The notes under the pieces: model-generated
The model's database searches: none
What the model was told of the DNA's origin: nothing
What the model saw: only the letters and a program-made list of their open reading frames with translations
Origin: Jeotgalibacillus aurantiacus
GTDB lineage: Bacteria > Bacillota > Bacilli > Bacillales > Jeotgalibacillaceae
Reading direction: 5' to 3'
DNA: 64,000 nt
Assembly (NCBI RefSeq): GCF_020595125.1
Contig: NZ_JACNMS010000004.1
Coordinates: forward strand, 1-64,000
Program-made: the position numbers and the translations under genes
In this document: in pieces, positions 1,739 to 58,601 of the stretch
Layout of the letters: each line of letters opens with the position of its first letter
Position numbering within the stretch: the stretch's first letter is position 1

Positions 1739-1880
1739 GATAGCTGGCCAGTTGATGATGATAGACTGTTTCGGTAAGCCAGATTAGTTGAGTGTTCTGT
1801 AATTAATGTAGATAGACGTTTGATTTCTGTCGATAGTCGTTTGAATTTCGTTGATCACGTCAATGAAATAGTCGATAGCT
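1739..1880. repeat. 21-nt-period degenerate tandem repeat, GATAG type
   Basis: The gene-free stretch between the tRNA terminator and yteA holds GATAG-like motifs at 1739, 1760, 1782 (GATTAG), 1811, 1832, 1853 (GATCA) and 1874. Spacing is 21-22 nt apart from one 29-nt step. The rest of each unit is degenerate. Both flanking transcripts end here. Nothing else was recognised in 1536-1980. Confidence 0.7.
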
Positions 1881-1980
1881 AATTTCAACACCCTGATCTC
1901 AAAAAACTATCCAAGCGTATCATAAACAGATTTAAACGAAGGTATCTTTAGAAAAGAAGAATACGACGATTTTAGCGCAA

Positions 1981-2020
1981 AAAAGGAATACACCAGTTAA
2001 ATAGGTGCATTCCTTTTTTT
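1981..2020 (-). terminator. terminator of yteA
   Basis: Inverted repeat of about 13 bp (AAAAGGAATACACC with GGTGCATTCCTTTT) just downstream of the yteA stop. It is followed by a T run on the minus strand and is probably bidirectional. Confidence 0.85.
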
Positions 2021-2021
2021 A

Positions 2022-2630
2022 TTATTCTTTATCACTGTTTTTATAAATTTTTCTTTCGTCACCTTCGAGGTCTGTTCCGATTGTGTCTTCGTTTACATCT
2101 TCTTCGCTGTAGAGGTCATTATAGTCTCCGGATCCGTCAGCCATATCGGAAGGGGTTTCGGAAGTACCGTATCGTCCTACTTCGTCGAAACTGTTTTCGT
2201 AGTCACGGACTTCGCTTTCTTCTCCTCTGTATGGATGATCAGACGAAGGGGACAGGACCGATTCTTCGCTTGGTCTGGAGTGATCATTGCTGAATTGTTC
2301 AGCATGCTCCACGCATGTCAGTGCAGTAGGGATGGCTTCTAGACGTTCGTAAGGGATTTCTTCTCCGCTTACGGCACAGATCCCGTAAGTGCCTTCATCC
2401 ATGGCCTTCAATGCACGGTTAATATCGTCAAGTTCTTTTTGTGTATGTTCCTCGAGTGCCAGGTCTTTTTCTCTTTCAAAAAGATCCGTGGCATTGTCAG
2501 CAGGGTGATTATCGTAGTTTGATAGCTCTGTATTCGTGTTACCATCAGGTTTTTCGTTTTGTTCAATGATTTCTTTTTTTCTGGTGAGTAATTCATGTTT
2601 AAGGTATTGTTTTTGTTTATCTGTAATCAT
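2022..2630 (-). CDS. yteA: YteA family regulatory protein (TraR/DksA-like)
   Basis: About 202 residues, usual for YteA, a sporulation-associated DksA/TraR-like protein found in Bacillaceae. The N-terminal half is charged and helical (coiled-coil-like) and contains the family stretch ELSNYDNHPADNATD. It is followed by the TYGIC...ERLEAIP zinc-finger region and a long acidic, disordered C-terminus. The finger is degenerate: CAVS and CVEH replace the CxxC pairs, so the usual four-Cys site is not intact. The start at 2630 is chosen because an upstream in-frame ATG at 2639 abuts the AAGGAAGG Shine-Dalgarno, whereas 2630 has about 9 nt spacing. It has its own terminator and is not linked to menA. 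Confidence 0.85.
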   Translation of the reverse strand: MITDKQKQYLKHELLTRKKEIIEQNEKPDGNTNTELSNYDNHPADNATDLFEREKDLALEEHTQKELDDINRALKAMDEGTYGICAVSGEEIPYERLEAIPTALTCVEHAEQFSNDHSRPSEESVLSPSSDHPYRGEESEVRDYENSFDEVGRYGTSETPSDMADGSGDYNDLYSEEDVNEDTIGTDLEGDERKIYKNSDKE

Positions 2631-2727
2631 GCAAAACATCCTTCCTTCATCTAAGTCACTTCTTACAGTTTATCCTTCTCACAAAAATTGAAACCTAACA
2701 TTGTATTTCGCTGCCTTTCAAAAATTA

Positions 2728-2752
2728 AAAAAGACCCCCGGAGGAGTCTTTT
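2728..2752 (-). terminator. terminator of menA
   Basis: Short hairpin (AAGAC...GTCTT around a GC-rich core) at the end of menA, with T-rich sequence downstream on the minus strand. Confidence 0.7.
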
Positions 2753-3662
2753 AAAAGAAGTATCCAATTAAATAACCGATTGATAACAAAAAGCCGAAAA
2801 TAGTGTTGGTCTGTGCTGTTGCTTTCATTGCAGGCATCATCTGGATCGGCATTGTTTTCCCAATGAATCCTTTGGTTGCTCTGACAGCTTTAGGAATGCT
2901 GAACAGACTGATGAGCAGCCATGGTGATACTGTACCGGTGATCACGAGGACTACTACAAACCCGTATGATACGGTGAACATACCGGCGAGCAGATAAATC
3001 GCTTTCTGTCGACCGAGGAGAATAGCAATGGTTTTTCTGCCGTTTTCCTTGTCTCCGTCTAAATCACGGATGTTGTTGGCAAGAAGGATTGCACCCACCA
3101 GAATGGAAACCGGAATCGATACAAGCATTGCTACCGCATTTACCATGCCGGTCTGAATATAGAATGAGATCAGGATAATGACAAATCCCATGAAAAATCC
3201 GGCCGTTATTTCACCAAATGGTGTGTAGGCGATTGGGACTGGACCACCTGTGTAGAAATAGGCTGCTGCCATACAGACTAGTCCGATCACGGCGATCCAC
3301 CATGAACTGTTGGCACAAATATAGAGACCCAGCAGTAATGCTACACCGAACAGAATGAAGGCAAGGTTCAATACTGTCTTTGGCTTAACGCCATTTCTTA
3401 CGATTGCGCCTCCGATGCCGACAGACTTTTCGTTATCCAGGCCGCGTACGAAATCGTAATATTCGTTAATCATATTGGTTGCAGCCTGTATGAGTATGCT
3501 TGCAAGAAGCATAGCCAGAAACATTGGCCAGTTGAGGCTGCTGTAATCAAGTGCTAATACTGTTCCGAGTAATACGGGAACAAATGCTGCGGTCAATGTA
3601 TGCGGTCTGGTCAATTGCCACCAGATGCGCCATCCCTGATCGCGTTCAGGTTGTAAACTCAT
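2751..3662 (-). CDS. menA: 1,4-dihydroxy-2-naphthoate polyprenyltransferase
   Basis: 303-residue multi-pass membrane prenyltransferase (UbiA superfamily). It joins a polyprenyl chain to 1,4-dihydroxy-2-naphthoate to give demethylmenaquinone. The two Asp-rich diphosphate/Mg2+ sites are clear: N66-x3-D70-x5-D76 (NEYYDFVRGLD) and D200-x-D202-x-D204 (RDLDGDKENG). About eight or nine hydrophobic segments fill the rest. It is divergent from menF, so the two transcription units start from one intergenic region. It has a strong predicted promoter and its own terminator. Confidence 0.96.
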   Translation of the reverse strand: MSLQPERDQGWRIWWQLTRPHTLTAAFVPVLLGTVLALDYSSLNWPMFLAMLLASILIQAATNMINEYYDFVRGLDNEKSVGIGGAIVRNGVKPKTVLNLAFILFGVALLLGLYICANSSWWIAVIGLVCMAAAYFYTGGPVPIAYTPFGEITAGFFMGFVIILISFYIQTGMVNAVAMLVSIPVSILVGAILLANNIRDLDGDKENGRKTIAILLGRQKAIYLLAGMFTVSYGFVVVLVITGTVSPWLLISLFSIPKAVRATKGFIGKTMPIQMMPAMKATAQTNTIFGFLLSIGYLIGYFF

Positions 3663-3705
3663 GTTATTCTCTCCTAACTGTAGTAACGCAATAAAGCCAA
3701 CTTAA

Positions 3706-3734
3706 AGTGTATGAAACAGGAAGAACTGTGTCAA
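3706..3734 (-). promoter_or_regulatory. sigma-A promoter for menA
   Basis: On the minus strand TTGACA (3734-3729) is followed by a 17-nt spacer and TACACT (3711-3706), about 45 nt before the menA start. Confidence 0.75.
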
Positions 3735-3845
3735 TAAACTTTTCAAAAATCGACAAAGTTTCTACAGTTTCATTATATCTCTTTTTCCCTCTGTGAAAAA
3801 GTTGGTGATGGTTGTAAAATAGAACGTTTGCCGATGACGATTCAT

Positions 3846-3875
3846 TGACATCATTGTAAAAAGAAGTGTATCTTT
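3846..3875 (+). promoter_or_regulatory. candidate sigma-A promoter of the men operon
   Basis: TTGACA (3846-3851), an 18-nt spacer and TATCTT (3870-3875) lie about 50 nt before the menF start. The -35 is consensus; the -10 is imperfect. Confidence 0.55.
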
Positions 3876-3925
3876 AAGAGAGCAATTCAGATGGACGAAT
3901 GTGCGATTTTTGGAGGGGAAGCACA

Positions 3926-5329
3926 GTGAAAATCCTACACGAATCACAGGGGTTTACAGCATTTGAACGCGCTTTTGAAAGCGCTGAAAAAACAAATAAG
4001 AAAGTTTTATATAGCAAGGTAATGAAAATCGGCACAGTGGACCCACTTCAATTTTATGAAGCGGGTTATTCTATCTATCATGGTGAGCGCTCGTTCTGGG
4101 AGGATCCTAAGAGTGAAACAACACTGGTCGGGCTTGGAAATGCGGAGATCTTTTCTTCTGACAGAGAGGAAGCGCGCTTCAATGAGCTTCAAAAGCAGTG
4201 GTTTCAGTTTTTAGAAGACGCAGTGATAGAGGACAGAGCCGGGATGAGTACAGGCCCTGTTTTGATGGGCGGCTTTACATTTGATCCAAAGCAGGAGACA
4301 GCAATAGAGTGGTCTAATTTTTCAAAGGCTTATTTCCATCTGCCTTCTTTTATGTTGACTGTTGAGCATGATGGCAGTGCCTATCTGACGATGAATATTG
4401 TCTGTATGGAAGGTGATCTGGCAGCAGAGGTCTGGAACCGAATGCAGCTTACGAAAGAACGACTCATGACAGGACAGTCTACACATATTAAGGACATCAG
4501 CGTGGAAACGATTGATGAGATCAGACCGGAAGAGTGGAAAAATTCCCTGACATCTGTGGTGGAACGCATCAATCAGGGTGAGATGGAGAAGGTTGTCCTT
4601 GCAAGAAAGATCAAGATTGGCTTTAACGATAAGAAACGATCAGATTCAGTTCTGGAACGCCTTCGTGATGATCAGGCGGACAGCTTTATTTTTTCTTTTG
4701 AGGTGGCAGATTCCTGCTTTATTGGGGCCACTCCTGAAAGATTGGTTAGAAAACAGGGAAATGAAGTGCTCTCCACTTGCCTTGCGGGGTCTATTGCCCG
4801 CGGGAAAACGATTGATGAGGATGAACGGCTTGGACAGGAGTTGCTGAATGATCAGAAGAATCTCGATGAGCATGAGATTGTGGTCCGAATGATTTCAGAC
4901 AGTCTCGGGCAGTTATGTGAATCCATTAACGTGCCGTCAAAGCCTGGTCTTATGAAAATGAGAGATATACAGCACTTATATACACCGGTAAAAGGTTTCA
5001 CAGGCTCTGAAAAGACGATTGTTGATTTTGTTGAAAAACTTCATCCGACACCTGCGCTTGGCGGAACGCCTACAGAGAGAGCGCTTAAGGTCATCCGGGA
5101 AGAGGAGAAAATGAATCGTGGACTTTATGCAGCGCCTGTCGGCTGGATGAATGCAGATGGTGATGGGGAGTTTGCAGTGGCAATCCGTTCTGGCCTCCTT
5201 GTTCAGGATTATGCTTATTTGTATGCCGGGTGCGGGGTGGTCAAAGATTCAGTAGCTGAGAGTGAATACCAGGAAACATTAATCAAATTCCGCCCGATGT
5301 TAAGAGCCGTGGGAGGAACAATGAAATGA
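3926..5329 (+). CDS. menF: isochorismate synthase
   Basis: Converts chorismate to isochorismate, the committed step of menaquinone synthesis. About 467 residues; the C-terminal two thirds form a chorismate-binding domain, with HPTPALGGTPTERA, LYAAPVGWM and YAGCGVV as recognisable conserved blocks. The GTG start at 3926 is preferred because GGAGGGG lies 7-8 nt upstream; an in-frame ATG further up (3899) lacks a good ribosome site. It is the first gene of menF-menD-menH-menB(-menE-menC), and its stop overlaps the menD start (ATGA). Confidence 0.96.
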   Translation: MKILHESQGFTAFERAFESAEKTNKKVLYSKVMKIGTVDPLQFYEAGYSIYHGERSFWEDPKSETTLVGLGNAEIFSSDREEARFNELQKQWFQFLEDAVIEDRAGMSTGPVLMGGFTFDPKQETAIEWSNFSKAYFHLPSFMLTVEHDGSAYLTMNIVCMEGDLAAEVWNRMQLTKERLMTGQSTHIKDISVETIDEIRPEEWKNSLTSVVERINQGEMEKVVLARKIKIGFNDKKRSDSVLERLRDDQADSFIFSFEVADSCFIGATPERLVRKQGNEVLSTCLAGSIARGKTIDEDERLGQELLNDQKNLDEHEIVVRMISDSLGQLCESINVPSKPGLMKMRDIQHLYTPVKGFTGSEKTIVDFVEKLHPTPALGGTPTERALKVIREEEKMNRGLYAAPVGWMNADGDGEFAVAIRSGLLVQDYAYLYAGCGVVKDSVAESEYQETLIKFRPMLRAVGGTMK

Positions 5330-7044
5330 ATCATCAGGATCGATTGACTGAATATGTATCAACTTTTATAGAACAACTGTATCAAAGTGGGGTGAGAAGA
5401 GCTGTGATTAGTCCCGGCTCCCGCTCAACTCCACTTGCTTATTTACTTGAAGCCCACCCGCTGATTGAAACTCACATTAATGTGGATGAGCGATCAGCGG
5501 CTTTTTATGCGCTCGGTATGGCGAAAGCGAGCGGAAAACCGGTTGCGATTGTCTGTACATCAGGGACAGCAGCAGCGAATTATTTTCCGGCTGTTGTAGA
5601 AGCGAAGTATGCACGGGTACCACTGGTCGTGCTGACGGCGGACCGTCCGCATGAGCTGAGGGACAACGGAGCACCACAGGCGATTGATCAGATTCATTTA
5701 TTTGGTCATCATGTGAAATGGTTTTATGATATGCCGCTTCCTGAAGCTGAATCAGCTGTCCTGCGCTATACGGGTAGGATTGCGGCTAAGGCTGCAGCGA
5801 AAGCAGAATCACATCCGAAAGGGCCTGTTCACCTGAACTTTCCTTTCAGGGAGCCTTTAATTCCAAAGCTTGATTCCTACAGGGAAACGGCTGTTTTTGC
5901 AGATGTTTTCCACGGGGAAAAGCAGTTGTCTGATGAACAGCTTTCTGTTCTTGCAGATAAAATAGACCATTCCGCAAAAGGGCTGATTATTGCAGGACCG
6001 ATGGAGTCGGAACATACACTGGACGATCTGATTGTACTGGCAGAAAAAACGGGGTATCCCATTCTCGCTGATCCATTGAGCGGTTTGAGGGACAGCATGC
6101 AAAAGCATGACATGGTGATCGAAACGTATGATGCTTTTTTAAAGGATGGATCGGTAAAAGAAACACTGAATCCTGACCTGATTATCCGCGTTGGCGGCAT
6201 GCCTGTTTCAAAAGCACTCAGTCAGTATCTACAAGGGTGTAATGCTGAGCACTGGCTGTTTGATGAGGGAGCGGAGTGGAGAGATCCGATCTCGGCAGCT
6301 ACGTCGTATATTGAGAGCTCTATACAGAGATTCTCCGATGTTGCGGAGCGTCTGACAAAGCAGCCTAATGGTGATTGGTTAAAGGTATGGCAGGAGCTGA
6401 ACAGAGCTGCAGAACGTGTGATCAGCCAATATGTACTGGAGCAGAAGGATGAAGGGGCAGCAGTTGGTACGCTTTTGAAGGCTCTCCCTGCCGGAAGTCA
6501 CCTGGTGGCAGGCAACAGTATGCCGATCAGGGATGTCGACACCTTTTGGACGAGAGACACAAAAGACATACATCTTTGGGCGAATCGCGGTGCCAACGGC
6601 ATTGATGGCGTTGTCTCTACTGCACTTGGTATCGCTGCGGTGAAAGACGAACCGGTCTATTTGTTAATCGGTGATCTGTCGATGTTCCATGATCTGAATG
6701 GTCTGCTCGTAGCAAAACAGCATCGCAGCAAACTGCAGATTATCGTCATGAATAATAATGGTGGAGGGATCTTTTCCTTCCTACCTCAGGCAAAAGAACC
6801 GGCTCATTTTGAAACGCTGTTTGGCACGCCGCCATCTCTTAATTTTGAGCAGGCAGCCGCTTTTTACGGGCTTGATTATCAGCGCTGTGAAACGAAGGAC
6901 GAACTTAAAGCTGTATTGCATGAAGAGGCGGATCGTCTGAAACTGACTGAAGTGCTGACAAACCGTGACGAAAACGTAACGGCCCATCGTAAGCTCTGGC
7001 AGGACGTTGGAGCAGCGTGCCGGGCAGTATTGGAGAAGGTTTGA
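5326..7044 (+). CDS. menD: 2-succinyl-5-enolpyruvyl-6-hydroxy-3-cyclohexene-1-carboxylate synthase
   Basis: ThDP-dependent enzyme that adds a succinic semialdehyde unit from 2-oxoglutarate to isochorismate (SEPHCHC synthase). 572 residues, typical length. The N-terminal block has SPGSRSTPLAY (about residues 27-37) and the CTSGTAAANYFPAV region. The C-terminal ThDP/Mg2+ motif GDLSMFHDLNGL starts near residue 449, with NNNGGGIFSFLP near 476. The start overlaps the menF stop by 4 nt, and menH follows without a gap, so it is translationally coupled on both sides. Confidence 0.97.
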   Translation: MNHQDRLTEYVSTFIEQLYQSGVRRAVISPGSRSTPLAYLLEAHPLIETHINVDERSAAFYALGMAKASGKPVAIVCTSGTAAANYFPAVVEAKYARVPLVVLTADRPHELRDNGAPQAIDQIHLFGHHVKWFYDMPLPEAESAVLRYTGRIAAKAAAKAESHPKGPVHLNFPFREPLIPKLDSYRETAVFADVFHGEKQLSDEQLSVLADKIDHSAKGLIIAGPMESEHTLDDLIVLAEKTGYPILADPLSGLRDSMQKHDMVIETYDAFLKDGSVKETLNPDLIIRVGGMPVSKALSQYLQGCNAEHWLFDEGAEWRDPISAATSYIESSIQRFSDVAERLTKQPNGDWLKVWQELNRAAERVISQYVLEQKDEGAAVGTLLKALPAGSHLVAGNSMPIRDVDTFWTRDTKDIHLWANRGANGIDGVVSTALGIAAVKDEPVYLLIGDLSMFHDLNGLLVAKQHRSKLQIIVMNNNGGGIFSFLPQAKEPAHFETLFGTPPSLNFEQAAAFYGLDYQRCETKDELKAVLHEEADRLKLTEVLTNRDENVTAHRKLWQDVGAACRAVLEKV

Positions 7045-7860: not shown

Positions 7861-7890
7861 AGCCCGATTACATAAAAGGAGGTTTCTTTC

Positions 7891-11375: not shown

Positions 11376-12629
11376 TTATTCAGCTTTCATAGCGGTTCTT
11401 AAGGATTCAATATTTCGCTCCATCAGTGTGAAGTACGTTTCTTCATTTTCAATATCTTCTTCTGTCAGAGTAGAGAGGTTATGCAATGGAAGTGCTTCTG
11501 CACCGATTTCTCCCTGAATCACATCTGTTAAACTCGATGAAACGTTTTGTTCCACCAGGATATGCTCCACATTTTGAGAGCGGGCAGATTCAACAATTTC
11601 AGTCAGTTCACGTTGTGATGGCTCATCAGTAGTGGATAGACCGGCAATCGCCTGCTGGTTTAATCCATAACGGCTTTCCCAGTAACCGAATGCTGCATGT
11701 GAAACAAAGAACTGATCTACAGTAACTGCAGCAGCAAGCTCTTCGAATTCATGGTTCAGTTCATCCAGCTGGGTAACAAGCTCTTCATAATTTTCATTGA
11801 AATAAGCTTCCTGCTCAGGCATCTTTTCTATAAGTGAGTCTTTGATCGATTCCGCAAGTGACTGGGATAAAACTGGATCGAGCCATAAGTGAGGATCTGT
11901 GTCTCCATGATCGTGTCCTTCATGACCCTCTTCACCTTCAGCATGTTCTTCTTCCTCATGCGCATGCTCTTCACCTTCAGCATGTTCTTCACCTTCAGCG
12001 TGTTCTTCTTCCTCATGAGCGTGCTCTTCACCTTCAGCATGTTCTTCTTCGCCATGTGCATGCTCTTCGCCTTCAGCGTGTTCTTCTTCCTCATGCGCAT
12101 GCTCTTCGCCTTCAGCGTGTTCTTCTTCGCCTTCAGCGTGCTCTTCTTCGTCATGTGCATGCTCTTCGCCTTCAGCGTGCTCTTCTTCGTCATGTGCATG
12201 CTCTTCGCCTTCAGCGTGTTCTTCTTCACCATGATTATGCCCGTCTCCGCCTTCACCAAGTTCAGCGTCAGACACATAATCTGCTGTCGCAACCATTGTG
12301 AGATCTTCACTTTGAAGAACGTCTGTGGCATTATCTACAAAACCTTCCAGACCAAGACCGATATAGAAAAATAAATCGCCTTCAGCCAAATCAATCATAT
12401 CGCGCTGGGAAGGTTCGAACGTATGCTCATCAGCACCCGGAGGATAAATGGCTTCTACATTTACATATTCTCCGCCAATTTCCTCAGCAAAATACTGAAG
12501 CGGATATACCGTTGTATAAACATCTAATGTATTTTCATTATTTTCACTGGATGAACCGTCTGATGAATTACAGGCAGCCAAAATCCAGGGAGCAGTAGCA
12601 GCTAGTAAAAGTAAAGCTTTCTTTTTCAT
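11376..12629 (-). CDS. zinc ABC transporter substrate-binding lipoprotein (ZnuA/AdcA-like)
   Basis: Cluster 9 (ZnuA/TroA-like) metal-binding protein, about 417 residues. The signal peptide ends in the lipobox LAAC with C20. The fold carries DEHTFEPSQRD, DPHLWLDPV, SHAAFGYW and the C-terminal VEQNVSS region, with His ligands in DEHTFE, DPHLW and SHAAF. The metal-site loop (about residues 128-241) is exceptionally long and made of repeating HAEGEEHAHxEEE-type units. The start at 12629 is chosen for GAGGTG spacing and the signal peptide; the frame continues 17 codons upstream. A Zur-like operator lies just upstream. No permease or ATPase gene is nearby, so the ABC partners must be elsewhere. Confidence 0.94.
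   Translation of the reverse strand: MKKKALLLLAATAPWILAACNSSDGSSSENNENTLDVYTTVYPLQYFAEEIGGEYVNVEAIYPPGADEHTFEPSQRDMIDLAEGDLFFYIGLGLEGFVDNATDVLQSEDLTMVATADYVSDAELGEGGDGHNHGEEEHAEGEEHAHDEEEHAEGEEHAHDEEEHAEGEEEHAEGEEHAHEEEEHAEGEEHAHGEEEHAEGEEHAHEEEEHAEGEEHAEGEEHAHEEEEHAEGEEGHEGHDHGDTDPHLWLDPVLSQSLAESIKDSLIEKMPEQEAYFNENYEELVTQLDELNHEFEELAAAVTVDQFFVSHAAFGYWESRYGLNQQAIAGLSTTDEPSQRELTEIVESARSQNVEHILVEQNVSSSLTDVIQGEIGAEALPLHNLSTLTEEDIENEETYFTLMERNIESLRTAMKAE
11905..12245 (-). repeat. in-gene tandem repeat coding the His/Glu-rich loop
   Basis: About 340 bp of nearly exact tandem units, mostly 39 nt (13 codons, HAEGEEHAHxEEE) mixed with shorter 18-21-nt units (HAEGEE or HAEGEEE). All unit lengths are multiples of three, so expansion or contraction keeps the frame. 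Nucleotide identity between units is high, which suggests recent slippage. Confidence 0.85.
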
Positions 12630-19399: not shown

Positions 19400-19546
19400 A
19401 CTCTTATCCCGAGCTGGTGGAGGGACAGGCCCTATGAAACCCAGCAACCTGCTCTGCAAAAAAGCGAACAGCTTTTGCGGTAAAACCATCACTTGAGCGA
19501 AGGTGCTAACCTGTAGCAAGACGAACTTGTCTTGAACGATAAGAGT
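19400..19546 (+). promoter_or_regulatory. SAM-I (S-box) riboswitch aptamer for metK
   Basis: P1 is formed by ACTCTTATC (19400-19408) and GATAAGAGT (19538-19546). The S-box core is present: GAGCTGGTGGAGGGAC, then GGCCCTATGAAACCC, AGCAACCTGC, and AAGGTGCTAACCTG. SAM binding should favour the downstream terminator and lower metK expression. Confidence 0.97.
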
Positions 19547-20954: not shown

Positions 20955-20986
20955 TTTTATGCGTCTTTGTGTGGGGATGGAGGAAT

Positions 20987-21153
20987 TGTACTGTTTCAGA
21001 GATTAATTAAATCGATCTAAAATTTATTTTAATCGTTTCAAATTTTTATTGTTATGTTCACCTTGTAAATGACTTTATTTGTCATGTTCCGATTGTGATT
21101 TGTATCGTTCTGCGGACCGAATTGTACTGTTCTAACAAATAAATGTATCGAAT
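20987..21153. repeat. 21-nt-period degenerate tandem repeat, TGTAYYGTTC type
   Basis: Related 10-11-nt motifs start at 20987 (TGTACTGTTTC), 21008, 21029 (TTAATCGTTTC), 21050 (TGTTATGTTC), 21080 (TGTCATGTTC), 21101 (TGTATCGTTC), 21123 (TGTACTGTTC) and 21144 (TGTATCGAAT). Steps are 21, 21, 21, 30, 21, 22 and 21 nt. The tract lies in the metK-topB gap, after the metK terminator. Confidence 0.72.
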
Positions 21154-31424: not shown

Positions 31425-31655
31425 TAAGTTGACGCTGAGAAGGATTAGTAGCAGGATAGCGGCTGAATGTAGAGAATCTGCGGTTGGTGAAAGCAGATCG
31501 GCAGCACTGTGAACTCACCTTTGAGTCGATGATGTGAAAGTCATTAGCATCATCCGTTTTCCGCGATAAGGATTGAGCGCGTGTACACGAATTTGGGTGG
31601 TACCGCGGGAGTGTTAATTACCTCCCGTCCCATATATGGGGCGGGAGTTTTTTGT
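31425..31655 (+). promoter_or_regulatory. T-box leader of leuS (Leu specifier CTC)
   Basis: A leader with the stem I AG-rich start, a specifier bulge GAACTCACC giving CTC (31514-31516, Leu), and the T-box sequence TGGGTGGTACCGCGG (31594-31608). The TGGT there pairs the 3' end of uncharged tRNA-Leu (discriminator A). The terminator CTCCCGTCCC...GGGGCGGGAG with a T run is at 31622-31654. Uncharged tRNA-Leu should switch to the antiterminator and raise LeuS synthesis. Confidence 0.97.
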
Positions 31656-34747: not shown

Positions 34748-34912
34748 TTGTAAAAAGCATCAAGTGCACCCGGTCTGCGCCGGGGTTTTGGGATAGAGTG
34801 GTTAAATAAGGAGGGAGAGTGGTCAAATAACCTGAAAGAGTGGTTGAATCACGCAAAAGAGTGGTTAAATAACCTAGAAAAGTGGTCGAATCATCACGAA
34901 AAGTGGTCAAAT
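34748..34912. repeat. direct repeat, left copy (brackets the NERD gene); includes a 21-nt-period tract
   Basis: About 165 bp nearly identical to 36183-36348. It begins TTGTAAAAAGCATCAAGTG, has the small hairpin CCCGGTCTGCGCCGGGG, then units GAGTGGTYRAATNACC starting at 34796, 34817, 34838, 34859, 34880 and 34901, exactly every 21 nt. Confidence 0.85.
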
Positions 34913-35043
34913 AACCAGACGAAATATTTTAAACTCACTAAATAAAGTTCGAAAGCAATGGATATAATTTGGATTCAGTCATTAGTTTAGATATATTTCC
35001 AAATGCAGATGTGATATTCTTACAAAAAAGGAGGAATCAAAAA

Positions 35044-36009
35044 TTGGAAAGAAAAAAACCTCTTGATCTGCTTACCCTAGAAAGGTTGATAGCAAGGTTA
35101 GACAGAAATCACCCGAATCTCTCTTATCTCGAAGAAGAATTAAGACGACTCCAAGCAGGCTATAAAGGTGAGTGCTACCTGGACTCTTTGACAGACCCAT
35201 TTATGACTTCGAATTTCTCCACCATTAAAAACCTCACAGTACCCTCTTATTTTGAAACTATTCAGTACGATCAAATTCATATTACTCCCTCATTTATTCT
35301 TATCATTGAATGTAAAAACATCATTGGAAAACTGACATTTCAACCAGAGGCTAGCTCTTTGAAAAGAGAGATTAATGGTGTTGAGAATTATTTCAGGGAT
35401 CCGCTCTGGCAACTCCATAGGCAAGTGGAGGGAATGAAAAAAATCCTCACTGAGCTGGGATTAAATATTCCTGTACTTGGCTACATCGTATTTACCTCTA
35501 CAAATAGCAGTTTACACACTACTACTCACCAGCAAATGAAACTCGAAAAAGTGATTAAAAGTGAGCAATTGACTTCTCAAATCAGGAAGCTTGAAAAAGA
35601 TTATCAAACGAAATACCTCAATTGTGAGCAAATCCAAGCGCTCACTTCTTCCTTAAAGAATCTCTCAGTTCAATTATCATGGAAAGACCCTTTAATAAAA
35701 TATAATATTTTGGTTGATGAATTAAGTTTGGGAATGCAATGTCCTAAATGCGGGAAGTTTAAATTGAAAAAAGAAAGATTTAAGTGGAAATGTGAAAACT
35801 GTCTTGGTTTGCTGCAAAAAATTGAAAAAGAACAGTTCATTGATTATTTTCTATTGTTAAATAGAAAGGCAAAATTAAAGGATTTGTGTGCATTTTATCT
35901 TGTGGATAATTCTAGAAATTTGAAGTACGCTTTACTATCGTCAGGTATTGAAATTTTTGGGAACACGAAGTCGGCTGAGTATGTTAGTTGGCTTCATGCA
36001 TCAGATTGA
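35044..36009 (+). CDS. NERD nuclease-related-domain protein with C-terminal zinc ribbon
   Basis: About 321 residues. The NERD region is about 38-150 (GYKGECYLDSL, then HITPSFILIIECKN, with the conserved Glu and ECK core). A C-terminal zinc ribbon follows (CPKC near 233 and CENC near 250), then a helical tail. TTG 35044 is chosen because AAGGAGG (35028-35034) lies 9 nt upstream; the frame stays open to 34969 without a ribosome site. The function is unknown; NERD proteins are predicted nucleases. Base composition looks more AT-rich than neighbouring genes. The gene sits between two near-identical 165-bp direct repeats, a sign of insertion or recombination. Confidence 0.85.
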   Translation: MERKKPLDLLTLERLIARLDRNHPNLSYLEEELRRLQAGYKGECYLDSLTDPFMTSNFSTIKNLTVPSYFETIQYDQIHITPSFILIIECKNIIGKLTFQPEASSLKREINGVENYFRDPLWQLHRQVEGMKKILTELGLNIPVLGYIVFTSTNSSLHTTTHQQMKLEKVIKSEQLTSQIRKLEKDYQTKYLNCEQIQALTSSLKNLSVQLSWKDPLIKYNILVDELSLGMQCPKCGKFKLKKERFKWKCENCLGLLQKIEKEQFIDYFLLLNRKAKLKDLCAFYLVDNSRNLKYALLSSGIEIFGNTKSAEYVSWLHASD

Positions 36010-36060
36010 GGACAGATACATTCAGATGCTTGTGGTAGCTATTTAGTGAATGTCCAAGTT

Positions 36061-36172
36061 TGGTTAAATGAAGGGGGAGTGGTCAAATAACAAGAAAGAA
36101 TGGTTGAATCATCCAAAAGAGTGGTTAAATAACCTAAAAGAGTGGTCGAATAACCAAAAAAGTGGTCAAATC
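36061..36172. repeat. 21-nt-period tract, third copy of the GTGGTYRAAT type
   Basis: GGTYRAAT-type motifs begin at about 36061, 36080, 36101, 36122, 36143 and 36163 (steps 19, 21, 21, 21, 20). It is related to, but more drifted than, the two direct-repeat copies, and directly precedes the right-hand one. Confidence 0.7.
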
Positions 36173-36182
36173 GGTTTTCAGA

Positions 36183-36348
36183 TTGTAAAAAGCATCAAGT
36201 GTCCCCGGTCTACGCCGGGGTTTTTGGGATAGAGTGGTTAAATAAGGAGGGAGAGTGGTCAAATAACCTGAAAGAGTGGTTGAATCATGTAAAAGAGTGG
36301 TTAAATAACCCGTAAAAGTAGTCGAATCATCACAAAAAGTGGTCAAAT
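36183..36348. repeat. direct repeat, right copy; includes a 21-nt-period tract
   Basis: Matches 34748-34912 over about 165 bp with few differences. Units start at 36232, 36253, 36274, 36295, 36316 and 36337, every 21 nt. It also carries the small CCCCGGTCTACGCCGGGG hairpin. Confidence 0.85.
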
Positions 36349-36376
36349 CACCCTCTACTTGCCCTACACGCTCAAA

Positions 36377-44585: not shown

Positions 44586-44614
44586 GCAGGAACTGTAGTG
44601 GGGGCGTGCGGAGC

Positions 44615-44740
44615 TTGGTCACTTTTGGGCTTTGTTTGGTCACTTGCTGATGTTCTTTGGACACATTTCGACCGAACTTGGTCACTTTGCCGTATTACTT
44701 AGTCACCTTTCACCGGAACTTGGACACTTTAGTGAAAATC
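44615..44740. repeat. 21-nt-period degenerate tandem repeat, TTGGTCAC type
   Basis: TTGGTCAC or a close variant starts at 44615, 44636, 44657, 44678, 44699 and 44720, exactly 21 nt apart six times. The other 13 positions vary freely. It is located between the convergent flavoprotein and cysteine synthase genes. Confidence 0.82.
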
Positions 44741-51601: not shown

Positions 51602-51634
51602 AAAGAGACTGGAACAAACCGTTCCAGTCTCTTT
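51602..51634 (-). terminator. terminator of ytzB
   Basis: AAAGAGACTGGAAC pairs GTTCCAGTCTCTTT around AAACC; bidirectional, between convergent units. Confidence 0.92.
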
Positions 51635-51639
51635 AGCAT

Positions 51640-51954: not shown

Positions 51955-52127
51955 GTTCACTTTCACCTCCGGACCGTTCTTTTATCAGTATAGCGGATCG
52001 GCTCTTTATCTGCATCTCTCTTTTCCAATTTTGACAAATTAGTTGTTCCATTGTGGCAAGAGGAGTGAAAGTTCTGTAAAATAAACGTTAGTTGTTTCGA
52101 CACACGACAGAAAGGAAGTTATACATA

Positions 52128-53201: not shown

Positions 53202-53202
53202 A

Positions 53203-53712
53203 ATGAAAGCAGCAGTCGGTACACTGAACAAATCGAAATTAAAAGCTGTTGAAACCGCCTGGCAGATTGGTGATGTTCAAGGATTTGATATTCCCTCAGG
53301 TGTCAGTGATCAGCCATTTGGACACGAGGAAACAATCGAAGGCGCGGTGAACAGGGCAAAAGGAGCAGCAGAAAAGCTTCCCGGAGCCGTTGGTATTGGT
53401 CTTGAAGGTGGTGTAACAGAGACACCGCACGGACTTTTTATTTGTAACTGGGGAGCGCTTGTGACACCTGATGGCAGAGAGCCGTTTATCGCTGCAGGTG
53501 CGAGTTTCAGGCTGCCGGACGAACTGGCTGAACCGCTCAGACAGGGGGAAGAACTTGGTCCGCTGATGAGGACATACAGTCATAACAAAAACATCAGTCA
53601 GGAAGAAGGGGCGGTTGGTTTTTTTACAAACCACAGGATTACCCGTGATCAGATGTTTGAACATATTTTGGAGCTGCTGATTGGTCAGTGGGAGTTTTCA
53701 AAGAGAACATAA
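53203..53712 (+). CDS. DUF84 family (YjjX-like) non-canonical NTP phosphatase
   Basis: About 169 residues. VGTLNKSKLKAVETAW at the N-terminus, PFGHEETIEGAVNRAKGA and GIGLEGGVTETPHGLF fit the DUF84/YjjX inosine-xanthosine triphosphatase family, which cleans damaged purine nucleotides. The activity is inferred from family. The ATG lies 1-2 nt after the ytoP stop, so it is translationally coupled. Terminator follows. Confidence 0.88.
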   Translation: MKAAVGTLNKSKLKAVETAWQIGDVQGFDIPSGVSDQPFGHEETIEGAVNRAKGAAEKLPGAVGIGLEGGVTETPHGLFICNWGALVTPDGREPFIAAGASFRLPDELAEPLRQGEELGPLMRTYSHNKNISQEEGAVGFFTNHRITRDQMFEHILELLIGQWEFSKRT

Positions 53713-53742
53713 AAAAATCCGGCAGAAATGCCGGATTTTTTA
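53711..53742 (+). terminator. terminator after ytoP-DUF84
   Basis: AAAAAATCCGGCA pairs TGCCGGATTTTTT around GAAA. Confidence 0.92.
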
Positions 53743-53768
53743 AGTAAATGTATTATCAAAACTATGAG

Positions 53769-53890
53769 AGTTGTTTAATAACGATCTAAAGTTGTCAAAT
53801 AACCTAGGAAAGTTGTCAAATAAAGCTAAAGAGTAGTCAAATAATTCAACAGACAGCTTTGTTAAATACTCAAAAATAGTTGTCTAATTC
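53769..53890. repeat. 21-nt-period degenerate tandem repeat, AGTTGTCAAATAA type
   Basis: Motifs start at 53769, 53790, 53811, 53832 and 53853 (steps of 21), with a drifted one at 53878. AGTTGTCAAATAACC is close to the AGTGGTCAAATAACC units around the NERD gene, 18 kb away. Located between convergent DUF84 and ytoQ genes. Confidence 0.75.
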
Positions 53891-53897
53891 GTGTGTT

Positions 53898-53986
53898 ATA
53901 TAGCCCGTTTCCACTTTTCTGTGGCCGAGCGTTGAGTCAGCTGGCACTTTTTTGCTCCAAAGGAGTCTTCGGATGTCACCGGCACT
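53898..53986 (-). repeat. decayed palindromic element
   Basis: GTGGCCGAGCGTTGAGTCAGC and CCAAAGGAGTCTTCGGATGTC are recognisable as the reverse-orientation family. Arms barely pair (TAGCCCG against CCGGCAC). 53987-54060 shows nothing else. Confidence 0.65.
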
Positions 53987-54074
53987 CAAAAGTATAGTCA
54001 TTCATGTCCTTCTATTTAGGCGTGAAAACAGACATCTCTTTTTTCATTCGTACAAGAGTATAAAAATAGTCGTT

Positions 54075-54521
54075 TTATTCCTCTTCAAATATATAAGAAA
54101 CGGCTTTTAGTGCCTGGTCAGGTGTTTCGACTGTGACGGTTGCTTTTCTTGAGAGTTCCTTTAATGCGTGATGAAGCTTTTCCGGTCGAATCAGTATCAG
54201 TGGTTTTCCGGCTGTTAAGGCAGCGGAAGCGTCCATTGCGGTGTTCCACTGTTTATATTGTTCACCGAAAAGCGCGATGACCAGGTCTGCCTTTTGCATA
54301 AGTACCTGTGTACGGAGATTATTAAAAGCAGATGCAGCATCATCTTTGAAAACAGGTGAAGGCTGCTCACCGAGTATTTCCTCCCCGATCTGATCCGAGC
54401 GCTCGTGATTTTCCATCGGACCTGTGAAATGAAGAGTGTACGGCAGTTCCTTCGCTTTTTCCTTTAACTGTTTCCGCCAGTCACTGTGAATTTCTCCCGC
54501 AAGATAAATCGTCAGTTCCAT
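54075..54521 (-). CDS. ytoQ: YtoQ family protein
   Basis: 148 residues, Rossmann-like pattern: TIYLAGEIHSDWRKQL at the start, FTGPMENHERSD, LMQKADLVIALFGEQYKQWNTAMDA in the middle and KPLILIRPEKL late. This resembles nucleoside 2-deoxyribosyltransferase-like folds, and homologues are filed as YtoQ. No activity is known. Single-gene unit between the DUF84 gene (convergent) and a lipoprotein gene (divergent). Confidence 0.87.
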   Translation of the reverse strand: MELTIYLAGEIHSDWRKQLKEKAKELPYTLHFTGPMENHERSDQIGEEILGEQPSPVFKDDAASAFNNLRTQVLMQKADLVIALFGEQYKQWNTAMDASAALTAGKPLILIRPEKLHHALKELSRKATVTVETPDQALKAVSYIFEEE

Positions 54522-54672
54522 CTACATTCCTCCTCAAAATATGTCGCAATAGTCAAAGTATATCACGATAAAAAATAGGCTGGAAATAAGTTGCTCTTCC
54601 CAGGGGTTGTCAAAAGCCTCTATGAACAGTATGATGTTAAACGAATGCTTTAAAATTTCAGGAGGAAATACC

Positions 54673-55179
54673 ATGAAGAAATTCAGTTTATTAATCCTAT
54701 TACTCGCCCTTTCAGCTGTATTGGCAGCTTGTAATACAACTATAGAGGAACAAAGAGACAAGACACTTGAAGAAGTAGAGGCTGTATTTAATGCAGACCC
54801 TGAACGTGCGAACGAAGAAGCACAGGATCTCGAGTTCCACATTCCTTATTTCGCAGAAGTCGCTGAAGAAGCTGATCACAACATCGTCATTGAAAAAAGC
54901 AATGAAACCTACGTTCTTTTTCATCACCTGAACGAAGAAGCAGGCCAGGATGCGATCTATACAATGACAGAAGCCTCATCTGAAGAGTGGCTCGTCAACG
55001 AAACGTTCGAAGCCAACGACCAATTTGGCTACGTACTGCTCAGACAGATTGACGAAGAAGAATACGAACTTGTGACAGGCGTAAACCACGTAAAAGTCAC
55101 CACCGTAACAGACCTTCAAAACATCGCTGACAATGCCGAATGGATGATGGAAACAGCCCGTTCTGCCCAGTGGAAATAA
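54673..55179 (+). CDS. small lipoprotein of unknown function
   Basis: 168 residues. The signal peptide (MKKFSLLILLLALSAVL) ends in the lipobox AAC. The mature part is acidic: a helix (EEQRDKTLEEVEAVFNADPE), then strands with YVLFHHLNEEAG and FGYVLLRQIDEEEYELV. I do not recognise the family. GGAGGAAATACC precedes ATG 54673; the frame is open upstream to 54607 without a ribosome site. Own terminator. Confidence 0.82.
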   Translation: MKKFSLLILLLALSAVLAACNTTIEEQRDKTLEEVEAVFNADPERANEEAQDLEFHIPYFAEVAEEADHNIVIEKSNETYVLFHHLNEEAGQDAIYTMTEASSEEWLVNETFEANDQFGYVLLRQIDEEEYELVTGVNHVKVTTVTDLQNIADNAEWMMETARSAQWK

Positions 55180-55189
55180 CCATTCAAAG

Positions 55190-55226
55190 GAAAATGCCCA
55201 AAACCATTGGGCATTTTCTTTTTTTA
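55190..55226 (+). terminator. terminator after the small lipoprotein gene
   Basis: GAAAATGCCCA pairs TGGGCATTTTC, followed by TTTTTTT. Confidence 0.9.
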
Positions 55227-55351
55227 TTGCCCGATAACCAAAATAACCACAATAGAATCATCATGGTTCAGGGATCATAAAAACTTATCAGTCTGACTGC
55301 CGCTCGATTCAACCTGAATTTTAAAAAACATATAATAATAAACAAACCCGA

Positions 55352-55466
55352 GGGCCGACCTCATCCGAAGACTCCTGCGGCAGAGAAGCGACAGGTGAGA
55401 CAGCGTATTGCGTAGCAATAGCTGGCTCACCGCGCGGCCGCGGAAAGCGAAGGATGAGGACGGCCC
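55352..55466 (+). repeat. palindromic intergenic element
   Basis: 15-bp arms GGGCCGACCTCATCC (55352-55366) and GGATGAGGACGGCCC (55452-55466) with one mismatch; full core. 55227-55345 carries nothing recognisable. Confidence 0.92.
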
Positions 55467-55553
55467 GACTGCATATGAAAAATCATAAAGCCACCACTTT
55501 ACAAAACAAACAACTGTCTTTACACTAGTAAAAGTGTAAAGGAGAGGGCATTC

Positions 55554-56564
55554 GTGAAATGGCTTAGAAAAAAAGGAGTTTCATTATCCCTTAAAATATA
55601 CTTAATTGACGGCCTCAGTTACATGGCACTTGGGCTTTTCAGTTCCCTCATCATCGGACTCATAATCCAGACAATAGGAAATCAATTCTCTATTCCCTTT
55701 TTAACAGAAATGGGGACGCTTGCGATAACTCTTGCCGGTCCTGCCATTGGCGCAGCTGTTGCATATGGTCTAAAAGCGCCGCCACTAGTGCTGTTTGCCG
55801 CAGTTGTTACGGGAGCGGCAGGCTATTCACTTGGTGGTCCTGCCGGATCCTATGTGGCGGCACTTGTATCTGTTGAGATCGGTAAAATGGTCAGTCAGAC
55901 AACAAAGCTTGATATCGTCGTGACCCCATTCATTACGATTGCAACAGGGTATATCATTTCGGCGTTTGTTGGACCGGAGATTAATGAATTCATGCAGTCG
56001 ATCGGCAGCTGGATCAGCTGGGCAACGGAACAGCGTCCGATTGTAATGGGCATGCTTGTGGCCGGCATCATGGGACTTGCTCTTACAGCGCCAATTTCAA
56101 GTGCTGCGATTGCTCTGATGCTTGGACTCGATGGCCTTGCTGCAGGTGCTGCAACGATTGGATGCAGCGCGCAGATGATCGGTTTTGCAGTGGCGAGTTA
56201 TAAAGAGAATAAATGGGGTGGCCTGGTTGCACAGGGGCTTGGGACATCTATGCTTCAGGTTCCGAACATTATCCGAAATCCGCTCATCTGGATCCCTCCA
56301 ACCGTTGCAGGTGTTCTACTCGCACCGATTGGAACCGTTATTTTCCAAATGGAGAATTCACCTGAAGGAGCAGGAATGGGGACGAGTGGGCTCGTTGGGC
56401 AGATCATGACTTTTAATACGATGGGTTTTTCATTTCCCGTACTCGGTCAGGTTCTCCTGTTGCATATTATTGGACCTGCCGTTATAACCCTGTTACTATC
56501 TCATTACATGAGAAAAGCCCGTCTGATTAAAGAAGGTCAGATGAGGATTCATACAGGAGGATGA
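55554..56564 (+). CDS. PTS sugar transporter subunit IIC-like membrane protein
   Basis: 336 residues with about nine or ten hydrophobic segments and Gly-rich loops (GPAIGAAVAYGLKAPPLVLF, GAAGYSLGGPAGSYVAALVSVE). It belongs to the PTS_IIC_2-type family of stand-alone IIC proteins. No IIA or IIB gene is nearby, and transport by a classical PTS route is unproven. GTG start with AAAGGAGAGG upstream. Its stop precedes the better ytpP start by 5 nt, so the two are probably in one mRNA. Confidence 0.83.
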   Translation: MKWLRKKGVSLSLKIYLIDGLSYMALGLFSSLIIGLIIQTIGNQFSIPFLTEMGTLAITLAGPAIGAAVAYGLKAPPLVLFAAVVTGAAGYSLGGPAGSYVAALVSVEIGKMVSQTTKLDIVVTPFITIATGYIISAFVGPEINEFMQSIGSWISWATEQRPIVMGMLVAGIMGLALTAPISSAAIALMLGLDGLAAGAATIGCSAQMIGFAVASYKENKWGGLVAQGLGTSMLQVPNIIRNPLIWIPPTVAGVLLAPIGTVIFQMENSPEGAGMGTSGLVGQIMTFNTMGFSFPVLGQVLLLHIIGPAVITLLLSHYMRKARLIKEGQMRIHTGG

Positions 56565-56569
56565 AAAGA

Positions 56570-56887
56570 ATGAAAAAGCTTGAATCAATGGAGCAATTTA
56601 ATGAGTTGAAAAATAATGGTAAGCACATTTTTATGTTCTCAGCTGACTGGTGCCCGGATTGCCGTGTGATTGAACCGATTCTCCCTGAAGTGGAAGAAAA
56701 GTTTTCATCATTCACATTTGTTTACGTAGATCGTGATGATTTTATTGATCTATGTGCCGACCTTAGTGTTTTCGGTATTCCAAGCTTTGTAGCCTTTGAA
56801 AACGGTGAAGAGACGGGCCGTTTTGTGAGTAAGGACCGCAAGACGCAGGAAGAAATCGAGCATTTTGTAGAGAGTCTTCCTGCATAA
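56570..56887 (+). CDS. ytpP: thioredoxin-like protein YtpP
   Basis: About 105 residues, single thioredoxin fold. The redox site is FSADWCPDCRVIEPIL (CPDC, about residues 27-30), and the cis-Pro loop is FGIPSFVAFENG. CPDC differs from the CGPC of housekeeping thioredoxin. The ATG at 56570 has AGGAGG 9 nt upstream; an in-frame ATG at 56561 abuts that site. It follows the IIC-like gene and matches B. subtilis ytpP in gene order with ytpQ and ytpR. Confidence 0.9.
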   Translation: MKKLESMEQFNELKNNGKHIFMFSADWCPDCRVIEPILPEVEEKFSSFTFVYVDRDDFIDLCADLSVFGIPSFVAFENGEETGRFVSKDRKTQEEIEHFVESLPA

Positions 56888-56909
56888 ACAGATCATCGCC
56901 ATAAAAAAG

Positions 56910-56954
56910 TAAAGCCTGACGCAAAATGAATTCCTTTAGCGTCAGGCTTTTTTC
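56910..56954 (+). terminator. terminator after ytpP
   Basis: AAAGCCTGACGC pairs GCGTCAGGCTTT, followed by TTT. Confidence 0.9.
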
Positions 56955-57004
56955 ATGTACAATAGAATGCGGAGAAAAACCTGTTCAACTATTGGAGGGT
57001 TATC

Positions 57005-57814
57005 ATGGCAGAAAAAATGGACTCATTGAAAATGAGAAATAAATTGAAGGAACGACTTGAGCATCCGGTTCGTGTCATCACGTACGACCGTGAAAAGGAC
57101 CAGCTCAGAGTTGAAGATAAAGAAACGAAAAAAGGAATCGAAATTTCAATTCCGAGTGTCATCGGCAAATGGAATCAGAAAAAGGACCAGGCAGTTGAAG
57201 AAACCGCCTATTATGTTGAAGAAGCGCTTGCAGTGATGGGAAGAAAAGCGGCTGTTCAAAACCCTGAAAAGCATGTCCTGCCCGTGATTCGCTCGACTTC
57301 TTTCCCGACAGAAGCAAAAGAAGGCGTTTCATTTGTATTTGATGAGCATACTGCAGAAACGAGAATCTTTTATGCGATGGATCTTGGGAAAACATACCGG
57401 CTGATTGATGAACCATTCCTGAAAGATCAGGGCTGGACACATGCCCAAATGAAGGAAATGGCACTATTCAATGTCCGTTCCCTTCCAGCAGAGATGAAAC
57501 GGGATGAAGTGGCAGAGAATGTATTCTATTTCCTGAACTCGAATGACGGATATGATGCCAGCAGAATCTTAAATGACTCGTTTTTAAAAGAGATGGCTGA
57601 TAAAATAGAAGGCGAAATGACGGTTGCCGTTCCTCATCAGGACGTTCTGATCATTGGTGACATCCGCAATGAAACAGGGTATGATGTACTGGCTCAAATG
57701 GCCATGTCCTTCTTTGCAGCAGGGCATGTACCGATCACAGCTTTATCTTTCATGTACGAAGAAGGAGAACTGGAGCCGGTCTTTATCTTAGGAAAAAATA
57801 AACGCAGGGAATAA
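57005..57814 (+). CDS. ytpQ: DUF1444 family protein YtpQ
   Basis: 269 residues, soluble. It starts [17 protein letters not shown] and contains [34 protein letters not shown] and [19 protein letters not shown]. This is the DUF1444 family. No catalytic motif is known. ATG has GGAGGG 6 nt upstream. It is 12 nt before ytpR, so the pair is co-transcribed. Confidence 0.9.
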
Positions 57815-57826
57815 GGAGACAATCTG

Positions 57827-58438
57827 ATGAACGTATTTTATAACAAGCATGGTATTGGTGATGTAGTCCTCATTAAACTGAATGACACGCCACGTCATTC
57901 CAAAGCCTTTGAAAGAAAAGGCAATGTTGTTCAAATTAAAAACAATGAAACAAATGAAGTGACAGGCTATAACATTTTTGAAGCATCTTCAACTTTTTCA
58001 TACGATGCAGAAGGCGTAGTTGACATGGACGCTGAAAAACTTAAGCAAATCAATGAAGTGATCCAGCAGGCCGGATTTGACCATCAGATTGAGGCTGACT
58101 TCACACCGAAATTTGTTGTTGGCTACGTTGAAGAGATGGAAAAACACCCGAACGCTGACAAACTCAACGTTTGTCAGGTGAATGTAGGAGAAGAAAAGCT
58201 ACAGATCGTCTGCGGCGCACCAAACGTTGAAGCAGGTCAAAAAGTGGTTGTAGCCAAGCCGGGCGCTGTAATGCCGAGTGGCATGATCATTAAAGATGCA
58301 GAACTGCGCGGCGTTCCATCAAGCGGCATGATCTGTTCAGCCAAAGAACTTGCACTGCCTGACGCACCGGACAAAAAAGGAATCCTCGTACTCGAAGACT
58401 CCTACGAACCCGGTCAGGCATTCCCGTTGTCTAACTAA
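57827..58438 (+). CDS. ytpR: tRNA-binding-domain protein YtpR
   Basis: 203 residues. N-terminal DUF4479-type region (about 1-90) followed by an EMAP/tRNA-binding OB domain ([20 protein letters not shown], then [38 protein letters not shown]). It resembles the stand-alone tRNA-binding domain of PheT. A role in translation is probable but not proven. Forms an operon with ytpQ and ends in a strong terminator. Confidence 0.93.
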
Positions 58439-58462
58439 AGTATTGTAAATTTTACTGCTGAT

Positions 58463-58499
58463 AAAGCCGGCTGGTGTAAATCTACACCGGCCGGCTTTT
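58463..58499 (+). terminator. terminator after ytpQ-ytpR
   Basis: AAAGCCGGCTGGTGTA pairs TACACCGGCCGGCTTT around AATC. Confidence 0.93.
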
Positions 58500-58522
58500 C
58501 TAATGACATTATTTTGTGGTCT

Positions 58523-58601
58523 ATCAACATATTGCTTAGTCCCATCAACATTTCAGCCCGGGTTTAATTATGTATCGACAGTATCATGAATATGATCAAT
58601 A
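58523..58601. repeat. possible 21-nt-period tract, ATCAACA type
   Basis: ATCAACA or ATCGACA/ATCAATA-like motifs start at 58523, 58544, 58574 and 58595 (steps 21, 30, 21). The 30-nt step matches the step in the 20987-21153 tract. Short, so the weakest case. Confidence 0.45.

Follow-up and report, generated by a model that had tools for sequence, protein, structure and literature searches.

The stretch of DNA under study (the window) comprises 64,000 nucleotides of Jeotgalibacillus aurantiacus (assembly GCF_020595125.1, contig NZ_JACNMS010000004.1, positions 1 to 64,000 of the forward strand; the genome is G000 below), and its gaps between genes contain arrays of about six near-identical short sites, spaced two turns of the DNA helix apart. 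Such arrays are dispersed through the genome, mostly in gaps after genes. An earlier note on this DNA had named several tracts with a 21-nt period, and the start-to-start steps that we measured bear out this spacing in all of them, together with the single long step described in three (1739, 20987 and 58523, called here by their first positions), which is 30 nt. What had been taken for one tract at 36061-36357 proved to be two arrays of family A. The arrays of the window are listed in Table 1, with in-phase starts for tracts 1739, 20987 and 58523 that were chosen by eye from the listed matches and the sequence. Taken singly, these three tracts are weak; what persuades us is that both their motifs and the 30-nt step are found again elsewhere, in families F and G.

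Table 1. Arrays and terminator-like features of the window, and consensus motifs of the families
Feature	Position	Strand	Motif	Description
F array	1735..1879	+	TGTYRATAG	About 7 sites, between tRNA cluster and convergent dksA/traR-like gene; starts 1735, 1756, 1786 (after a 30-bp step), 1807, 1828, 1849, 1870, other steps 21 bp
G array	20986..21153	+	TTGTAYYGTTC	About 8 sites, directly after metK terminator; starts 20986, 21007, 21028, 21049, 21079 (after 30), 21100, 21122 (after 22), 21143
Terminator-like hairpin and T-run	34769..34789	+		Just before A array; read from sequence
A array	34796..34912	+	GAGTGGTYRAAT	Six sites, starts 34796-34901, every step 21
A array	36058..36171	+		About six sites; 36077-36140 at 21, edge steps 19-20
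A array	36232..36348	+		Six sites, starts 36232-36337, every step 21
B array	44614..44732	+	TTGGWCACTTT	Six sites, starts 44615-44720 at 21; convergent genes either side
Terminator hairpin and T-run	53718..53741	+		Before the array at 53768; read from sequence
A-variant array	53768..53888	+	AGTTGTYRAAT	Six sites, between convergent genes; 53768-53831 at 21, then 25, then 21
F array, probable, short or decayed	58522..58580	+	TATCAACA	Three sites: 58522, 58543, 58573 (after 30)
Family A			AGTGGTYRAAT	Variant AGTTGTYRAAT
Family B			TTGGWCACTTT	
Family C			ATYCTGCGAAC	
Family D			CTSACRAAC	
Family E			ATTCCTTC	
Family F			TATCRACAG	
Family G			TTGTAYYGTTC	

Our motif-blind scan covered 459 kb of G000 and asked, for every period between 15 and 63, whether any 10-column motif recurs in five units. 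The DNA consisted of the window, an unbroken 240 kb from contig C1 (C1:300001-540000, which was also picked for hits inside it) and eight stretches chosen around known arrays. Genes were called as longest open reading frames (ORFs), uncurated, and left 78,339 bases as non-coding; score cut-offs were set by us. At period 21 there were 44 non-coding clusters, and at the other periods none, except 4 at period 42 and 1 at period 43. The 21-nt excess, which the earlier note had named as a check on its idea, is strong in this DNA. Coding clusters were seen at several periods, with 10 at period 21, some of which are arrays lying under spurious ORFs. In the window alone, with two coding minisatellites masked, a four-unit scan gave 5 clusters at period 21, 3 at 18, 3 at 42 (a harmonic of 21), 2 at 36 and 0-1 elsewhere; tracts 20987 and 58523 fell below its threshold.

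When all arrays were rescanned with family profiles, 516 of the 579 steps of up to 45 bp were exactly 21 bp. The remainder includes 20 steps of 20 bp (15 in D and 5 in A), 10 of 22 bp (9 in E), 11 of 30 bp (all in families E, F and G), 21 of 41 or 42 bp, each of which reflects one missed unit, and a single step of 19 bp. Since the arrays had originally been found through period 21, only the rarity and family-specificity of these exceptional steps are informative. Six units are the rule in A (22 of 30 arrays), B (25 of 32) and C (9 of 10), and D, E and F mostly have five units above the cut-off, with further units at the array edges. In the 240-kb stretch 29 arrays were assigned, a density of about one per 8 kb that is similar to that of the window; by extrapolation only, from a stretch that was not a random pick, the 3.5-Mb genome would hold about 400.

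About seven motif families, A to G, are common to multiple loci. The 54 assigned arrays of G000 comprise 15 A, 10 B, 9 C, 9 D, 5 E, 5 F and 1 G; the G array of the window, being under the cut-off, is absent from this set. The motifs had been described as specific to each tract or locus, which our searches contradict, in that families recur: BLAST with one of the window A arrays found 24 places in G000, 19 in the nearest relative, G004, and 0 in 19 other relatives, and BLAST with a B array found 11 places in G000, 18 in G004 and 0 in 11 other relatives. Read on the strand that begins with AGTG, A (AGTGGTYRAAT), B (AGTGWCCAAGT) and E (AGTGAAGGAAT) have fixed ends and a variable middle, and both C and D have CGAAC and a cap near GGTCAAATnTCACT ahead of the first unit, a cap that also precedes the C-like arrays of relatives. 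These shared features suggest related readers.

Several further observations concern the layout of single loci. A repeated element (ACCTCGAGGGGCTAG.CGCCG.AGCTGGACA) lies just ahead of several B arrays (loci L044, L064 and L075), L179:3020-3850 holds four tandem B arrays, each with its own terminator-like hairpin, at about 200 bp per module, and L189:360-860 holds three tandem D arrays, one every 183 bp. Elsewhere in the window, Rfam matches include a cluster of 16 tRNA genes at 56-1497, a SAM riboswitch at 19401-19545 before metK and a T-box leader at 31426-31635 before leuS, and an in-frame repeat tract (39-nt and longer periods) occupies 11929-12230 within a minus-strand ORF of 434 aa.

Conservation and placement of the arrays

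Across loci, most motif columns carry 1.6-2.0 bits of information, the freest columns of A and B 0-0.6 bits, and the A and B flanks 0.2-0.3 bits. About 16 of the 21 columns of family A carry some conservation, so that the term "free spacer" is true of about five columns there. C and D differ in having a one-sided conserved cap, with 0.6 bits over 40-60 bp (an inverted partner was not looked for). Alignment of 24 array pairs between G000 and G004, with 122 alignment gaps set aside, showed differences at 139 of 1671 positions in motifs, 143 of 869 in spacers and 577 of 3645 in flanks, i.e., spacers differ at a rate like that of the flanks, and motifs differ less than spacers (Fisher p 1.5e-9). 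Taken pair by pair, the spacer differs more in 16 of the 24, with one tie. On average, though not in each array, motifs are held and spacers change as flanks do.

Position eight of the A motif is C in 62 and A in 16 of 86 units in G000, and C in 44 and A in 35 of 85 units in G004 (Fisher p 0.002 for C and A, with units of orthologues that are not independent), as if the taste of the reader had moved at this single position. At the degenerate positions W in B and S in D, bases are exchanged inside one pair class, which would fit a protein reading DNA better than RNA pairing.

Counts of placement, of terminators and of orientation include orthologous arrays in both species. Both neighbouring genes are known for 107 arrays, and the gap is tandem for 63 of these, convergent for 32 and divergent for 12, against 137, 61 and 77 of the gaps of at least 150 bp in the same DNA. 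As to the claim that most tracts lie where genes end or converge, at least one gene 3' end is present in the gaps of 95 of these 107 arrays, against 198 of the 275 gaps of that size. For G000 only, the corresponding numbers are 49 of 53 arrays and 108 of 146 gaps with a gene 3' end, and 31 tandem, 18 convergent and 4 divergent arrays against 74, 34 and 38 gaps, with divergent gaps depleted (4 of 53 vs 38 of 146, p 0.005).

For 109 gene 3' ends that face an array no more than 400 bp away, the predicted terminator precedes the array in 80 cases, follows it in 24 and falls within it in 6; in array-free gaps of matched lengths, a terminator is predicted in 83 of 226. Duplicated arrays share gene ends, and the p value of this comparison is therefore too small. 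By family, the terminator comes before the array at 25 of 31 ends in A, 20 of 25 in B, 9 of 12 in C, 13 of 15 in D and 9 of 13 in E, and in 10 of the 32 B arrays a terminator-like hairpin lies exactly 9 bp from the last unit. Arrays of families A to E are thus located for the most part past the terminator, where little transcription is to be expected. The description of a dispersed system of periodic sites is supported by this location, by the 21-bp excess well outside the window and by the selection on motifs.

Distribution among relatives

Both flanks of 26 of the 54 G000 arrays were found in the G004 stretches, and 24 of the 26 have an array of the same family and orientation there (one D and one B are missing), a figure that is biased upward since these stretches were chosen for known arrays; the window, not so chosen, gives 4 of 7. 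Persistence at orthologous gaps, by which the earlier note proposed to judge its tracts, was seen in part: four of the seven window gaps carry the same family in G004 (58523 weakly), the gap at 44615 carries an E array where G000 has B, and two carry none. Shared array positions may be partly due to chance, given arrays in roughly a third of gaps.

In the genus, the four-unit scan gave matches at period 21 in G004 (4 in 60 kb), G005 (1 in 20 kb), G006 (3 in 33 kb), G007 (6 in 120 kb), G008 (2 in 82 kb), G009 (1 in 40 kb) and G011 (1 in 40 kb), with one match each in G006, G008 and G011 that looks coding or like a simple repeat. Individual gaps differ in what they hold. For example, the metK gap, with its G array in G000, contains C-like arrays (TTCTnnGAAC) in G006, G007, G008 and G009 and no array in G004, G002 or G003 (G001 and G010 are not comparable). 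The gap between the DUF84 gene and ytoQ is a bare terminator of 31-35 bp in G006, G007, G009 and G011, and exceeds 300 bp, with a terminator and an array, in G004 and G000. In the rhodanese/HI0933-like gap, G006 and G007 have CGGGTCACATT arrays, and G000 and G004 have A arrays around an extra gene, which encodes a NERD-domain protein and occupies 34969-36009 of the window. The array at 36232 and the hairpin preceding it are a near copy of the array at 34796. As G006 and G007 have a single array between the facing neighbour genes and lack the NERD gene, gene gain or loss accompanies array duplication here.

Outside the genus, no 21-bp array was found in G013, G017 and G020 (100 kb each), and one was found in 180 kb of G015. 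Of 397 genomes in the order sample, 3 contain pattern B in triplicate, namely G000, G004 and one with a simple repeat. In a wider collection, TTGGACAC arrays are present in Gracilibacillus (six units filling the gap), Sporosarcina, Ureibacillus and one Arthrobacter; many other matches are near-identical minisatellites of unrelated bacteria. Scans at period 21 gave 5 arrays in 100 kb of Sporosarcina BP05, where stretches were partly chosen for known arrays, 0 in 80 kb of Sporosarcina JAI121, 0 in 40 kb of Ureibacillus, and 1 in 80 kb of the Arthrobacter, with a different motif. The Arthrobacter 21-bp array, at L211:17189, has the further motif ACTGTAAGAG. Single clusters at other periods do occur in non-carriers and in other genera.

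Proposed binding tracks and rival explanations

The motifs, phasing, unit number, motif conservation and place relative to predicted terminators are established directly, and from them we infer protein binding, cooperativity and a border function. Our preferred reading, to which we assign a probability of roughly 0.42, is that the arrays are binding tracks for DNA-binding proteins and are likely to form local borders between transcription units. Asymmetric short motifs, a phase of two turns, six units, drifting spacers and a place beyond terminators all point to binding-site tracks on one helix face. About six copies of a sequence-specific DNA-binding protein would align along that face, one site per two turns, on a track placed in the gap beyond the terminator, and the reading proteins would differ from family to family, although they may be related. 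Protein and DNA together would form a block of about 126 bp, which would most likely act locally, as a border between adjacent transcription units, e.g., by halting read-through RNA polymerase or by confining supercoils. We favour a border role, as a best guess, since conservation is seen for single arrays at their own loci and these lie at the ends of transcription units. The architectural function proposed in the earlier note is plausible. A more specific version, in which related proteins each read their own 21-bp-phased code and form short filaments in untranscribed gaps, so marking where transcription units border on each other, seems to us rather doubtful; codes would then drift together with their readers, such that related species carry another code, sometimes in the same gap.

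Several findings weigh against binding tracks at borders. The analysis found no protein that binds the arrays. Gain and loss are frequent, G004 having no array at the window gaps 1739 and 20987, and no period-21 array was found in 277 kb sampled from four species of the genus (G001, G002, G003 and G010). In 7 of the 24 orthologous pairs it is the motif, not the spacer, that differs more, at least slightly, and the terminator precedes the array at only 3 of 9 gene ends in F and 1 of 4 in G. Orientation in tandem gaps is mixed (co-directed/opposed: A 7/8, B 18/5, D 2/5, E 1/5, F 0/4), which makes a polar roadblock a poor fit; a fixed orientation of arrays to genes was rejected on these counts.

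Mobile DNA offers a different account, in which the arrays are solo transposon ends whose non-autonomous copies have spread into low-harm gaps. Transposases of the IS21, Mu and Tn7 types recognise sets of direct repeats at a spacing of about two turns, the A and B motifs presumably resemble IS21 end motifs, arrays do duplicate (as tandem copies, and as the copies at 34796 and 36232, hairpin included), the distribution is patchy and extends to distant genera, and two array types flank the extra gene at 34969-36009. Against this, no IS21 transposase exceeded the curated cut-off of 160 in G000 or G004 (best 20.8 and 21 bits; the search covered the IS21 family) or the cut-off in two Gracilibacillus genomes, and loci of about 3.9 kb around real IS21 genes, with ends not exactly mapped, contain single motif-like strings and no period-21 array. 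IS21 ends, a promising candidate by motif, are disfavoured on these grounds. The flanks of A and B are not conserved, neutral solo ends should not hold motifs better than spacers, and IS21 repeats are 23 bp apart (PMC10122671). We therefore regard solo transposon ends as unlikely. An arm-type integrase domain was likewise rejected as a candidate, with 1 match in G000 and 0 in G004.

A chromosome-wide architecture, i.e., sites for a nucleoid or condensin-loading factor that acts over long distances and not on adjacent genes, would account for the high density (about one array per 8 kb in the window and the 240-kb stretch) and for the location beyond terminators, and the AGTG orientation of A arrays follows the local GC skew in 23 of 30. 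This bias is absent in B (18 of 32) and numbers for other families are small, with orthologues counted twice throughout; moreover, several unrelated motif families per genome are unexpected for one factor, and redundant sites should each face weak selection. On balance we hold this reading to be improbable.

Two further readings are far less probable. One is that the arrays are titration or immunity sites that mimic iterons and sequester the initiators with which incoming plasmids start replication. Iterons come in small sets of asymmetric direct repeats, each of about 19-22 bp, a form that the arrays share, and several families could match several plasmid types. Idealised A and B arrays, the two families searched, gave a single weak partial match among 72,556 plasmids (30% of the query, E 0.9) and none among 50,697 phages; in viral contigs pattern A was absent and pattern B occurred in four contigs with dissimilar tracts. 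No replication initiator was recognised by Pfam among the ten genes beside the window tracts, and we consider this reading the most remote of all. Very improbable, too, is an action at the RNA or protein level, with repeats that function in transcripts or encode heptad-repeat peptides, 21 nt being seven codons. Open frames do cross some arrays, with a maximum of 5 of the 6 frames, in one B array. Most arrays lie past the predicted terminator, none of the 18 Rfam matches in the window is at a tract, 8 of 30 A arrays and 5 of 10 E arrays have no open frame, and no frame is kept through steps of 20, 22 and 25 bp. None of the tests run supported a transposon, plasmid, phage, RNA or coding reading. 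CRISPR is not suggested by the unit and motif lengths; cas genes were not searched for.

One D array, at G000:C1:380302-380464, lies just ahead of an rsfA-family regulator gene, where G004 has two. The RsfA regulator was rejected as an explanation, since all 12 of the 12 species examined in the genus have a match to its family, which so leaves the presence and absence of arrays unexplained.

Comparison with known systems

If binding tracks at borders are what these arrays are, some Gram-positive bacteria have their gene borders marked by hundreds of conserved non-coding arrays that have escaped notice so far. They would give a direct handle on the insulation of neighbouring genes in bacterial chromosomes, and a natural case of several DNA-binding codes evolving in parallel; even as relics of mobile DNA, motifs kept while spacers drift would still need explaining. 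Among the matches listed from the open-licence literature there is no description of such arrays, and in the bacterial paper among them that contains the motif letters, these sit in mutagenesis primers. The nearest described cases differ from the arrays in unit, place and flanks.

Like the arrays, the ends of IS21, Mu and Tn7 have several direct repeats per protein about two turns apart, and those of IS21 have two repeats per end at the 23-bp spacing, in contrast to six per array at 21 bp (PMC10122671). The BrickBuilt minisatellite MITE (miniature inverted-repeat transposable element) of Porphyromonas also consists of intergenic tandem units of similar length at many loci; its units are 23 nt, abut without spacers and are bounded by inverted-repeat ends (PMC4596501), whereas in the arrays only the motif is conserved and the A and B flanks are not. 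The TAACTGA repeats of Beggiatoaceae, whose function is reported as unknown, are likewise short direct repeats found at numerous intergenic loci, with two to six copies at each, and differ in being one heptamer placed mostly just before start codons (PMC4679880), where the arrays have several motifs and lie beyond gene 3' ends.

Other systems are more familiar. Plasmid iterons are likewise asymmetric direct repeats about two turns apart in small sets, whereas the arrays are chromosomal, at many loci and of several motif families, with no replication gene among the ten window-tract genes checked. The repetitive extragenic palindromes of enterobacteria and their mosaic elements (REP/BIME) resemble the arrays in lying at many loci beyond gene ends and in being candidate sites for gyrase or nucleoid proteins, but they are palindromic and spread by an enzyme, unlike asymmetric direct repeats whose spacers vary between loci. 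BldC and the head-to-tail regulators of the AraC/XylS type place asymmetric protomers on phased direct repeats; they act at promoters, whereas the arrays avoid promoter-only gaps, and the analogy is to how such a protein would work on its DNA.

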